From assembly GCA_947259315.1 (NCBI GenBank), contig CAMYLR010000009.1, positions 1 to 64,000 on the forward strand: a stretch of 64,000 nt of DNA, in the 5' to 3' direction. The position numbers and the translations under genes are program-made. Every line of letters begins with the position of its first letter. Position 1 is the stretch's first letter. The notes beneath the pieces were generated by a model. That model searched no databases. It saw nothing but the letters and a program-made list of their open reading frames with translations, and was not told the origin of the DNA. Shown in pieces: positions 11,450 to 59,270 of the stretch. The stretch is from an uncultured Gemmatimonadales bacterium (GTDB taxonomy: Bacteria; Gemmatimonadota; Gemmatimonadetes; JACCXV01; JAHWKZ01).

Positions 11450-12841
11450 TCAGCTGGCGAGAAGTGCCCCGCCCAACGGCTTCAACTTCGCTGTGAAATG
11501 CCGTAACGTAGGTGGCGCCTCGACGATCACGAGCCCGCGTATCCGGCTCCGCAGGTCGTTTACGTGCGCCACGACCTCGCACAGGTAGTCGACGTGGCTC
11601 TGCGTGTACACGCGACGCGGGAACGCGAGGCGAACGAGCTCCATCGGCGCCGGTTTCTCCGATCCATCCGGTTGATGTCCAAACATCACCGAGCCGATCT
11701 CGACCGATCGCACGCCGCCCTCGGCGTACAAGACGACCGACAGCGCCCACGCCGGAAACTCGAGCGGCGGGATATGCGGGAGCATCGCCTTGGCATCGAT
11801 GTAGATCGCATGCCCTCCGGGTGGCCGCACGATCGGAATCCCGGCTGCCATCAGCTTGTCACCGAAGTAGGCGACCGAACGGACCCGGTACCGTAAGTAC
11901 GCCTCGTCCAGCGCCTCGAACAGACCGAGTGCGACCGCCTCCAGATCGTGTCCGGCGAGGCCGCCGTAGGTCGGGAACCCCTCGGTCAGGATCAACTGGT
12001 CACGACAGTCGTGGGCGAGGTCGTCGTCGTTGAGCGCGAGAAAACCGCCGATGTTCGTCAGGCCGTCTTTCTTGGCGCTCATCGTGCAACCATCGGCGTA
12101 CGAGAACATCTCCTTCGCGATCTCGAGCGGGGTCTTGTCGCCGTATCCTTCCTCGCGTTGTTTTATGAACCAGCTGTTCTCGGCGAAACGACACGCATCG
12201 AGAAAAAGCGGGATGCCGTGATGACGGCAGAGCTCGCTCACAGCACGGATGTTCGCCATGCTCACCGGTTGACCCCCGCCCGAATTGTTGGTCACCGTGA
12301 CGAACACCATCGGCACATTCCCACCTTCACTCTCCAGCGTGTCGGCTAGCGCCGCGACGTCCAGGTTCCCCTTGAACGGATGCTCGACCTCGGGATGGAG
12401 CGCCTCGGCGATCGGCAGGTCACGCGCCTCAGCGGACTGCGCTTCGATGTTGGCCCGCGTGGTATCGAAATGGGTGTTGTTTGGCACGATCTGTCCCGCG
12501 CTCACCGCCGCGCCAAAGAGGATGTGCTCGGCGGCGCGCCCCTGGTGGGTCGGGAGCACGTGCTTGAAACCGGTGATCTTACGCACCGCGTCCCGGAACC
12601 GATAAAATGACCGCGCACCGGCGTACGACTCGTCGGCCCGCATGACCCCCGCCCACTGTTCGGATGACATCGCGCCGGTGCCCGAATCGGTCAGCAAGTC
12701 GATCAGTATGTCCTCCGCCTTGACCCGGAAGAGGTTGTAGTGGGCGTTCCGAAGCGCCTCGATGCGCTCCTCACGGTTGAGCTGGCGAATCGGCTCGACG
12801 GTCTTGATTCGAAACGGCTCGATGATCGTTTGAAACTCCAT
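11450..12841 (-). CDS. Tryptophanase / tyrosine phenol-lyase family beta-eliminating lyase
   Basis: EPFRIKTVEPI...ILIDLLTDSGTGAMSSEQWAGVMRADESYAGARSFYRF...VLPTHQGRAAEHILFGA; SAKKDGLTNIGGFLALN (PLP lysine). Confidence 0.88.
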   Translation of the reverse strand: MEFQTIIEPFRIKTVEPIRQLNREERIEALRNAHYNLFRVKAEDILIDLLTDSGTGAMSSEQWAGVMRADESYAGARSFYRFRDAVRKITGFKHVLPTHQGRAAEHILFGAAVSAGQIVPNNTHFDTTRANIEAQSAEARDLPIAEALHPEVEHPFKGNLDVAALADTLESEGGNVPMVFVTVTNNSGGGQPVSMANIRAVSELCRHHGIPLFLDACRFAENSWFIKQREEGYGDKTPLEIAKEMFSYADGCTMSAKKDGLTNIGGFLALNDDDLAHDCRDQLILTEGFPTYGGLAGHDLEAVALGLFEALDEAYLRYRVRSVAYFGDKLMAAGIPIVRPPGGHAIYIDAKAMLPHIPPLEFPAWALSVVLYAEGGVRSVEIGSVMFGHQPDGSEKPAPMELVRLAFPRRVYTQSHVDYLCEVVAHVNDLRSRIRGLVIVEAPPTLRHFTAKLKPLGGALLAS

Positions 12842-12854
12842 CACACAGCCTTCG

Positions 12855-13445
12855 TTAATCGCTGGAAGAGACCGGCTCGAGAGCGGCGAGCTGCTCGAAC
12901 TCACGGACGAGATCGCCGCGACCGGCGCGCTCCAGCGCCGGAAACAAGATCTGGATCGGGAGCGCGACGCGACGCGCGTTACCGCCCGGCGGTTCCGGGT
13001 TGAACAGCACCAGGCCTATGACGAGCTCGTCTCCGTCGTCTGGACTCGACGTCAGAGCTTCGCGTAGATCGGCCGTCGAGACGGCGGGCACGACGCGCGC
13101 GTCAACACCGGTGAGATTCGAGACGCCAGCGCCATCCATCGTCAAACCGCGATCCCGCGGGACCACTGCTTCGAGCGCCTCGTCTACGGCTTTCTTAAAA
13201 GGATCCGCCAGCCGATCGTCGGCGATGACGCTGTTCCGAGCGGGACGATACCACTGATCGCCGGGTACGCGGTCGACCGGCTCGCCGGTCAGCACGCGCA
13301 CCGCTTCGCGGCGGTTGGCGTCGTACTCCCGATTGGCGCTGAACGTAGGTCCCTCGCCCTTACGCAGCAGGACGAGGACCGTCACCATTCCGGCCAGGAA
13401 GAGAACCGATATGACCAGCACGGCGACGCCAAGTAGCGGGCCCAT
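12855..13445 (-). CDS. Hypothetical membrane-anchored protein
   Basis: Single N-terminal TM (MGPLLGVAVLVISVLFLAGMVTVLVLLRK) plus soluble domain; no family recognised. Confidence 0.55.
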   Translation of the reverse strand: MGPLLGVAVLVISVLFLAGMVTVLVLLRKGEGPTFSANREYDANRREAVRVLTGEPVDRVPGDQWYRPARNSVIADDRLADPFKKAVDEALEAVVPRDRGLTMDGAGVSNLTGVDARVVPAVSTADLREALTSSPDDGDELVIGLVLFNPEPPGGNARRVALPIQILFPALERAGRGDLVREFEQLAALEPVSSSD

Positions 13446-13716: not shown

Positions 13717-14199
13717 CTAAGACGTTCCGTCGTGTTCGTGTCCCGGTGGTTCGGGTGTAGGCGTGCCCGGCAGCCCCTGGCTGTACTTCGCCTCGACCAA
13801 TGCTCGAATCTCCGGTAACGGCATCCCCGCCGCGTGTTGTACCTTCGCCTCCCGGGCGACATCGAGACAGATCGTTCAGCCAAACCCCATCAAGTCGATG
13901 TCGACCCGCGGCACGGGCCCGCTTCGATCGATCGCGTCGACGAAGCAATCGTAGGCGGAGATGTGAGGCGGGGATTCATCCTCACAGCCGCAGTAGCACG
14001 GGATGTACTCGAGCACCTCCGGATGCTTGGCAGCGAAAACGTAGATCTCGACGATGTCCTCCGGCACTTGATCCATGATCACCGGGAACTCGACCCCGTC
14101 GATCAGAACCCAATCGGCGGAAGTAGACACTCGATCGCCGCCGGCTTCGCCACAACCCGCCGCGATACAGATCAAGAGGCCAAGGACAGACATTCGCAT
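13717..14199 (-). CDS. PCYCGC-motif lipoprotein with in-frame TGA (candidate selenocysteine) at 13876-13878
   Basis: MRMSVLGLLICIAAGCGEAGG lipobox; HPEVLEYIPCYCGCEDESPPHISAYDCFVDAIDRSGPVPRVDIDLMGFG[TGA]TICLDVAREAKVQHAAGMPLPEIRALVEAKYSQGLPGTPTPEPPGHEHDGTS then TAG; the frame continues coherently after TGA. Confidence 0.65.
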
Positions 14200-14444
14200 A
14201 GGGCGACTAATATATCTGTTCGCGACCACACGCGTCGACTGCAGCGTCCATACGCCCTCTGCCGTCCAAGGAGGGGACTTTCCCCTCAAAAAAAAGGGTT
14301 TCTACTACAGCACTGGTTCCAAATTTCCGACTCCAGGTTGAAGAGGCTCCTGACCGACAAATCCCCTCACAAACCATAGGATCAAACGAAACGCCAGCGA
14401 GCAAGGGTGACAGAACCGAAAGCAGGCAAACTGTGAGGAGGACA

Positions 14445-15284
14445 ATGAGAACTCCGGGGCTATTTGTTGTGGGTCTTTTCCTGTCGGGCTGCGCTAGTCA
14501 AGACAACCCAACCGCGCTCGCCGACCTCAATCCGGTAGCGGAGTTCGAGGTCGAGCTTGCAGAGGTGGAGACGATGCAAGCAGTTGAGGTGCTCGTCAGC
14601 GTGCGCGAGGGTGGTAGCCCGATGCGGCTGAGGAACGCGCGGCTCGAGGTTCAGTCCCCCTCGGGGCCCACGCAGCTGATCCCGCTCGAGTCCGACCCCC
14701 ACGGATACGGCGCGCATGTGCGCTTCTACGAGCCGGGTGAGCACCATCTCCACCTCCACGGGCAACCCGAGAAGAACCACCTGTCACGAGAGATGGGTGA
14801 GCACGACCTCCACGTCGAGCGTCAGCACCTCGAGGTCAGCGACCACCGGTTCGAGATCGCGGTGAGTCCGGCCCCGATCATCGTCGGCGCACCCGGCCGC
14901 GTGATCCTGTACGCGTGGGAGCTCGAGCACGATGGTGGCATCGGGCACGAGGCCGAGGGCGTCGAGTTACACGCCACGCTGCACATGCCGAATGACGCCG
15001 AAGTACGACTCGAGTTTGCAGAGGTCGAGCACGGGCAGTACGAGGCTGCCGCCGTCTTCCCGGTCGCCGGATCGTATGGCCTCCAAGTCGAAGTCGAGGC
15101 CGACGATCACGGGGACGAAGATGACGGACACGATGACGAGGGCGATGACCACGGTGACGAGGGCGACGATGATCACGCCGACGGTGAGGACGACGACCAC
15201 GGCGCGGAGTTCGAGATTCACGTGCCATCCTTGACCGGCGAGATCGTAGACGACGGAGGGGACGATGACGGCCATGGGCATTAA
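14445..15284 (+). CDS. FixH/YtkA-like lipoprotein with Asp/His-rich C-terminal tail
   Basis: GTGAGGAGGACAATG start; lipobox FLSGCAS; two YtkA-like repeats; DDHGDEDDGHDDEGDDHGDEGDDDHADGEDDDHG. Confidence 0.65.
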   Translation: MRTPGLFVVGLFLSGCASQDNPTALADLNPVAEFEVELAEVETMQAVEVLVSVREGGSPMRLRNARLEVQSPSGPTQLIPLESDPHGYGAHVRFYEPGEHHLHLHGQPEKNHLSREMGEHDLHVERQHLEVSDHRFEIAVSPAPIIVGAPGRVILYAWELEHDGGIGHEAEGVELHATLHMPNDAEVRLEFAEVEHGQYEAAAVFPVAGSYGLQVEVEADDHGDEDDGHDDEGDDHGDEGDDDHADGEDDDHGAEFEIHVPSLTGEIVDDGGDDDGHGH

Positions 15285-19414: not shown

Positions 19415-19678
19415 ATGACCGGATTCCATGGATCACACAGCGCGGTATCGCACACCCGCGCCCTAGCGATCACGGGGTGGCTCACGGGCATCTACTTCGT
19501 CGTCGAGCTCGGGATCGGGGTCTGGACAGGTTCCGTTGCCGTGATTTCCGACGCCTTTCACACGTTCTCTGCCGTTGGCGGTGTGCTCATCGCGCTGGTG
19601 GCAGGCCGGATCGCCGCACGTCCGGCAAGCACGACGCAGGATCGCGGCCTGAGCACGGGCGGGTGCCCGAGTGCCTGA
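19415..19678 (+). pseudogene. Truncated cation diffusion facilitator (CDF/CzcD-like) N-terminal fragment
   Basis: ITGWLTGIYFVVELGIGVWTGSVAVISDAFHTFSAVGGVLIALVAGRIAARPAST is CDF TM1-TM2; ORF then loses similarity and stops; the remaining TMs are absent. Confidence 0.65.
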
Positions 19679-19680
19679 CC

Positions 19681-20982
19681 TCAAAAACTGTACTTCAACC
19701 GAACGTGCAGTCGGCTGTTGTCGTCGAAGTCTCCAAAGAATGTGTCTTGTCGCCCACCGAGCAGGTCCAGGTCTATCAAGAGCTCGGCGCCGTCTGCGAA
19801 CGACCACCTACCACCCGGTTGTACGTACCAATTCCGGGTCCCGACGTTGTACACGCCTTCGACTTTCACCAAGCTGAAAGGACCCAGCTCGAGATCTACC
19901 TTCCCGAGCAACGATCTGCGAAAGACGTGGTTCAAGTCGGTGTCACGGAGCGTCGAGTGCCGGTCCGGAACCTGCACTTCGTGACTCCACTCCAACAGAA
20001 CGAACAGATCGCGGTCCCCGACCAAGTCGTTGAGGGTATAATCGCCTCCGACTACATAGTGTAGGTACGGATCATCGATCGCCGGGTCGGTCCCACTCCA
20101 GTCCGATGTCAGGTAGTAGGCCCCCTCGCCATGCACGCCTACTGAACCCAACGTCGTGGCGAAATCCGCCCCAATCGCGCGACGGCGGTGATACCGCGGC
20201 TCAACCAGGATCCGGGCCGCGGAAAGGGTCGAGTCAACGGAAGTCTCGGTGTGCAGGGCCGGCAGATCGTCGAGTCCGTCGAACCAACTCAGCGAAACGT
20301 CCCAGCTGCCGAGAATTCCAGTGACCCGTAGCGCGTATTGAAATCGGTCGAAGCCCTGGTCGGGCAATACGTCGTCCGCAAACTCGTAAGAGGCTCTGAC
20401 AAAGGGCGGACCTAATGCGGGAAAGGAGGGGTTCGGCACCGTCGCCGGCAGATCAGGCCACCACCTTGATTCGGAGTCCGGCAGGACGCTGGCCCGGAAA
20501 GAAGGCGCCAACACCGCCTCGACAGACCAGTCGCCCGAGTAGTACGTCACCAACCCCGAGAGGAGACCGAGCTGTTCGTCGTCGGTATCCAGGATATCCG
20601 AGAAATCCCAAGCCGTCAGGTTGTCGGTTGGGTTTACCGCGTCCGCACGTCCCCACGCGAAGATCTGACGACCGAGCCGCAGATCGACAGGGCCTAAATA
20701 GAGATCGACGTACGCTTCGTCCAAGGACCAACGGTTTCGCGACCAGTCAGCCTGATCCAAGCGGAACTCCACGGCCGAAAAAAAGTGGGCCGCCTCCCCT
20801 GCGTCATGGCTTGCCTCGGCCTGCAGGATAAGCTGATTTCGCCCGTTGATCCGCGCACCATCCGTTCCCTCGAAGTAAGTCAGGTTGTCGTACTCGACGA
20901 ACCCTCCCAAGCGCGTCTGCGCCGACACCCACGAAGGGGTCCCCGCAAAAAAGACAAGCGCGCCAAACAACAGCGACCGCAT
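19681..20982 (-). CDS. Outer-membrane beta-barrel protein (DUF1302-like) linked to the MMPL transporter
   Basis: Signal peptide ...VSAQTRLGGFVEYDNLTYFEG; beta-barrel with terminal LHVRLKYSF; operonic with LolA-like and MMPL genes. Confidence 0.65.
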   Translation of the reverse strand: MRSLLFGALVFFAGTPSWVSAQTRLGGFVEYDNLTYFEGTDGARINGRNQLILQAEASHDAGEAAHFFSAVEFRLDQADWSRNRWSLDEAYVDLYLGPVDLRLGRQIFAWGRADAVNPTDNLTAWDFSDILDTDDEQLGLLSGLVTYYSGDWSVEAVLAPSFRASVLPDSESRWWPDLPATVPNPSFPALGPPFVRASYEFADDVLPDQGFDRFQYALRVTGILGSWDVSLSWFDGLDDLPALHTETSVDSTLSAARILVEPRYHRRRAIGADFATTLGSVGVHGEGAYYLTSDWSGTDPAIDDPYLHYVVGGDYTLNDLVGDRDLFVLLEWSHEVQVPDRHSTLRDTDLNHVFRRSLLGKVDLELGPFSLVKVEGVYNVGTRNWYVQPGGRWSFADGAELLIDLDLLGGRQDTFFGDFDDNSRLHVRLKYSF

Positions 20983-57240: not shown

Positions 57241-57310
57241 GACGTGAACGATACTGTTCGATGGTCAGAATCGCCCGCGAACGGTAGGTTTCCCATTGCT
57301 CGTCCATACA

Positions 57311-59270
<1,960 letters not shown>

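Follow-up and report, generated by a model that had tools for sequence, protein, structure and literature searches.

An in-frame TGA codon in a PCYCGC-family lipoprotein-like gene of a Gemmatimonadales bacterium: a predicted selenoprotein from a branch beyond the NCBI family model

Does the TGA codon that interrupts a lipoprotein-like reading frame in an uncultured Gemmatimonadales bacterium end the protein, or is it read as selenocysteine? The question is raised by positions 13717-14199 on the minus strand of the window, which is the whole stretch of 64,000 nucleotides that was analysed. The sequence there reads MRMSVLGLLICIAAGC...IPCYCGCEDE...MGFG-TGA-TICLDVAREAKVQHAAGMPLPEIRALVEAKYSQGLPGTPTPEPPGHEHDGTS-TAG. 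Read from 14199 down to 13717, the frame opens with an ATG start, a hydrophobic N-terminus and a PCYCGC motif, and the TGA that follows is separated from a TAG stop by 52 codons.

The reading frame and its family

The features of the locus are as follows.

13717..14199, minus: PCYCGC-family lipoprotein-like gene; 160 residues when TGA is translated as U, with one in-frame TGA and then a TAG stop
14152..14199, minus: N-terminal signal with a lipobox-like I-A-A-G-C (codons 12-16), a putative lipoprotein signal on sequence only
13984..14001, minus: PCYCGC motif, from the translation; its cysteines are invariant in the alignment
13876..13878, minus: in-frame TGA at codon 108, predicted to encode selenocysteine; the column is TGA in L024/L064, L025, L038 and L089, and TGC or TGT in eight PCYCGC-type Cys homologues
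13867..13878, minus: UxxC motif, U-T-I-C, the counterpart of the family CxxC, from the multiple alignment and the homologue sequences
13845..13859, minus: candidate upper stem-loop of a bacterial SECIS element, UCGCC-CGGGA-GGCGA; 21 nt from UGA to loop, in the same register in five of five TGA genes
12855..13445, minus: downstream neighbour of 196 aa; no Pfam match, with a similar protein downstream in L064 (ORFs compared by eye)
14433..15284, plus: divergent upstream neighbour, a His-rich envelope protein, weakly YtkA-like (PF13115, E = 7.5e-4, a match that misses the curated cut-off)

The encoded protein is probably an exported lipoprotein. The original prediction had assigned it to the PCYCGC family (Pfam PF13798), and the profile indeed matches the read-through protein in a single stretch that spans the TGA, with a score of 84.2 bits (E = 1.1e-23; residues 37-151 against profile positions 42-151) and a gathering score of 25 bits. 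A search with this profile across the whole genome gave a single match, flagged as containing one TGA, and that match is the window gene. The order of motifs in the family, PCYCGC and then CxxC, is reproduced in the window protein as PCYCGC and UTIC. As can be seen in the alignment, the U replaces the first cysteine of the conserved CxxC, which is where the in-frame TGA had been expected to fall. The PCYCGC lipoproteins of the Bacillales (PF13798; for example in Priestia, Paenibacillus and Geobacillus) display the complete pattern that the original prediction gave for the family, namely PCYCGC, a later CxxC and an EIR...Y ending, and in this they resemble the window protein. Unlike the window gene, they carry cysteine at the selenocysteine column and have no hairpin after it.

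Selenocysteine had already been predicted within PF13798. The listing in PMC13188914, which cites Zhang and Gladyshev 2007, places a "CYCXC family protein (hypothetical protein OS_HP4)" with a UxxC motif under this Pfam family, a list from 2022 (PMC9312934) likewise gives OS_HP4 with UxxC, and "CYCXC family (seleno)protein" is the name of the NCBIfam model NF041379. The original prediction knew of no published selenocysteine member, and as a claim to novelty that statement does not stand against these entries. From the UxxC motif, we infer that the selenocysteine of OS_HP4 lies at the homologous CxxC. OS_HP4/NF041379 and the window protein thus belong to the same Pfam family and have one selenocysteine in a UxxC motif, in both cases predicted from sequence alone. 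They differ in that the window protein has PCYCGC rather than CYCXC and a longer spacer before the UxxC.

NF041379 gives 60 bits for the window protein and 55.7-75.4 bits for the remaining selenocysteine members of its branch, all below the equivalog cut-off of 90; a protein from the shorter CYCxC group exceeds that cut-off with 98.7 bits. By these scores the window protein is related to the equivalog and is not filed as a member of it. The window gene is, on our reading, a selenoprotein gene in a new branch within an already known selenoprotein family, a branch missed by the annotation pipeline because its scores of ~56-75 bits fall short of 90.

The TGA codon in homologues and the sequence that follows it

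The original prediction had proposed to look for cysteine at the TGA column in homologues and for other TGA-containing orthologues; cysteine is conserved there, and such orthologues exist. Four further genes have TGA at this column. They are found in G003 (L064; MGFG-U-GICIEIAREAK), in G005 (MGFT-U-TICLDVARVAR), in G224, which belongs to another family (HALG-U-GICVDITRDV), and on the plasmid NC_011961.1 of Thermomicrobium roseum DSM 5159 (MTFG-U-GICIDITRDV). Note that L024 and L064 are identical in sequence and are counted once; a contig scan for further copies gave only L064. The corresponding Cys forms read HALGCSICVDIT in G032, G227 and G071 and HAIGCSICVDIT in G089, and those on four Bacillales plasmids GTRCGVC, GTKCGAC, GTTCSTC and ATKCGVC. 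The shorter CYCxC group has CxxC throughout at this position, and the column is cysteine in all other family members that were read. In most of the weaker matches flagged with one TGA, this TGA is apparently the normal stop codon that closes the match; the sequences read cover the loci that were fetched.

The codons beyond the TGA had been described as a normal protein rather than random read-through, and the comparisons bear this out. Between the window gene and L064, pN/pS is 0.36 over 47 codons after the TGA and 0.43 before it. The differences after the TGA are distributed as 11, 8 and 27 over codon positions one, two and three, such that 27 of 46 are in the third position. With the G005 copy the signal is weaker at that distance, with a pN/pS of 0.60 over 32 codons. 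By these measures purifying selection acts on the codons beyond the TGA. Not all relatives stop at this position; in the other TGA genes the frame continues with conserved sequence.

The gene in T. roseum (L089:3884-4336, corresponding to NC_011961.1 573004-573456) has the same PCYCGC...UxxC architecture and hairpin register as the window gene. The RefSeq entry, WP_012642643.1, is cut at the in-frame TGA, in contrast to the 160-residue read-through of the window gene. Since the conserved C-terminal part follows in frame and the hairpin is shared, WP_012642643.1 is probably a mis-annotated selenoprotein. The search for selenocysteine genes in this strain covered the plasmid alone, where it gave neither selB nor a tRNA-Sec above the cut-off. 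No paper on selenocysteine in T. roseum was found; the genome paper is silent on selenium, and others name the species in passing. With these genes, a barely described selenoprotein family reaches the Gemmatimonadota and a cultured thermophile, in a branch beyond the NCBI model.

The hairpin UCGCC-CGGGA-GGCGA named in the original prediction is present, and the distance of about 16 nt given there applies to the start of the stem; the loop lies 21 nt after the UGA. In all five TGA genes the stem has 5 bp or more and closes a 5-nt loop at 21 nt, with the loop following CG[G/U]N[A/U] (CGGGA, CGGGA, CGUGU, CGUGA and CGUGA). Across five pairs in five sequences, 25 of 25 cells are paired, and sliding the partner strand destroys the pairing. 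Compensatory changes occur in two of the five pairs (G-C to A-U and G-C to C-G), and RNAalifold, unprompted, returned the same helix in the TGA genes. At the same place the eight Cys homologues form 0-2 pairs, and the hairpin is absent. Such U/C pairs, with the hairpin in the U forms only, provide a clean natural comparison for the rules of bacterial SECIS elements.

The geometry given for these elements in PMC13188914 is a stem of 4-16 bp, a loop of 3-9 nt with a G in the first two positions and a spacing of 16-37 nt, and the window hairpin agrees with it (5 bp, the 5-nt loop CGGGA, 21 nt). The same source gives a minimum free energy limit of -7.5 kcal/mol, of which the 22-nt window hairpin falls slightly short at -7.1 kcal/mol. 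Stretches of 39-45 nt reach -7.9 to -8.7 kcal/mol, but their best fold is another helix. When the TGA genes are folded singly, the minimum free energy structures differ, and 88% of synonymous recodings of the 45-nt window stretch fold at least as well. The argument for the hairpin is therefore one of comparison and not of energy. Synonymous recoding of the same peptide yields the hairpin core in 0.7-7% of cases per gene. For the window gene the value is about 7%, and thus its hairpin taken alone is weak evidence; multiplied over three independent sequence groups, treated as unlinked, the values give about 3e-5. The exact hairpin register is not shared by the selD gene of the window genome.

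Selenocysteine machinery and the alternatives to insertion

The genome from which the window derives (2.4 Mb, 96% complete) contains the selenocysteine genes that the original prediction called for: selA at 472 bits, selB at 372 bits (cut-off 242), selD at 366 bits and a tRNA-Sec with the anticodon TCA at 75 bits. Its selD (L009, G000:C6:214406-215329) has one in-frame TGA, at CAGU, and probably encodes a selenoprotein itself; UGA recoding would thus serve at least one other gene in this genome. A tRNA-Sec with TCA was found in each of G003, G005 and G224, selA in G003 and G224, and selB in G005 and G224. Many genomes with the Cys form also have selA, and hence the presence of the machinery is not enough to predict the U form.

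On the basis of the U/C column, the selenocysteine genes, the shared covarying hairpin and the purifying selection after the TGA, the product of the window gene is almost certainly a selenoprotein in the PCYCGC/CYCXC family (PF13798), with selenocysteine insertion itself as the inferred step. In the proposed mechanism, the ribosome would reach the UGA at codon 108, where SelB, docked on the hairpin a short way downstream and carrying Sec-tRNA-Sec, would insert selenocysteine with no termination. The outcome would be the full 160-residue protein. Its UxxC, where a pair of C-terminal helices begins, could together with the PCYCGC cysteines provide a thiol-selenol redox site, a soft-metal site or both.

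Were the TGA a true stop, the gene would encode a truncated or decaying PCYCGC protein. Such a fate would fit an accessory gene that can be lost, and the relatives G001, G002 and G004 have no such gene. It would also fit the G005 copy, in which an additional in-frame TAA (L025:1631-1633) lies 21 codons before the TGA codon, in a column that is tyrosine or leucine in relatives; because of this TAA, the G005 copy may be a pseudogene or decaying gene, or may reflect an assembly error. The conservation of the 52 codons after the TGA under purifying selection already makes truncation of the window gene unlikely. With TGA at the same codon in four further genes, including one from a different phylum, with the selenocysteine machinery present and with a shared hairpin in the TGA genes only, we consider it very improbable.

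Slighter still is the chance that a cysteine codon, TGC or TGT, was misread as TGA. The window does come from a 33-contig assembly, but five genes that were sequenced separately have TGA in one and the same column, one of these genes resides on a complete replicon of a cultured strain, and the hairpin is restricted to TGA genes. A reassigned TGA, or one read in another way, for example as tryptophan or by near-cognate suppression, carries an equally small probability: the in-frame TGA is all that speaks for it. The homologous residue is cysteine and not tryptophan, a tRNA-Sec with TCA is present, and TGA serves as the normal stop of other window genes (11450-12904 and 19681-20982, for example), such that it is not generally reassigned.

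Gene neighbourhood, fold and evolution

Beyond the His-rich YtkA-like gene, the window encodes a porin-like protein, two c-type cytochromes and a cytochrome b. A CusA/CzcA efflux gene ends just upstream of the family member in G005 and is located nearby in G032 and G071, and a fragment of a copper P-type ATPase lies near the L064 gene. A cupredoxin adjoins the Cys form in G032, and a multicopper oxidase adjoins a Priestia homologue. The gene directly downstream in G224, G227 and G071 (L090, L093 and L094) encodes a Fer4_5 membrane protein, about 495-506 aa long, which is found beside both Sec and Cys forms and is possibly a functional partner. These neighbourhoods, some members of which are only loosely linked, suggest a role in envelope copper or heavy-metal handling, redox chemistry or electron transfer. 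For a family called "unknown function," they provide a first testable hint, pointing to copper or heavy metal at the envelope.

A search of the PDB by sequence gave no relative of the window protein. The AlphaFold model, built from two sequences, has a moderate mean pLDDT of 70.9, and the U residue is positioned just ahead of the helix pair, which has pLDDT values of 81-95. A Foldseek fold search of the PDB gave no significant match; the highest probability in the list, 0.41, belongs to CcmH (2hl7) at a nonsignificant E = 1.5. In the CcmH/NrfF periplasmic thiol oxidoreductases, too, a CxxC precedes two helices joined by a G-[KMQ]-[SP] turn, with a tyrosine after them. An hhalign comparison with E. 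coli CcmH/NrfF gave a probability of 25-32% over 34-35 columns, which cover the helices only and leave out the CxxC. The likeness to CcmH/NrfF is a lead only.

In a tree of 23 members the selenocysteine forms occupy at least two places. The window gene groups with those of G003 and G005, the G224 gene has the four Cys forms from family f7 as its neighbours, and the T. roseum gene stands apart. Two changes of the Sec/Cys label are needed on this tree, which fits both a change from Sec to Cys in f7 and two gains of Sec, and a single origin of the Sec forms is compatible with these two changes. A broader reading, which we regard as possible but somewhat unlikely, is that the PCYCGC-proper branch represents an old selenoprotein lineage that spans two phyla, the Gemmatimonadota and the Thermomicrobiota, and in which the Cys forms derive from ancestral Sec forms. 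Its members would function as selenol-based copper, heavy-metal or redox factors of the envelope and would have been truncated at the UGA by annotation.

Two other elements were observed in the window, both on the plus strand. Positions 19415-19678 encode an 87-aa fragment, apparently truncated, that matches the beginning of the profile for CDF cation-efflux proteins (positions 3-62 of 285). Positions 57303-57405 contain a TPP riboswitch that scores 69 bits, above the Rfam gathering score.
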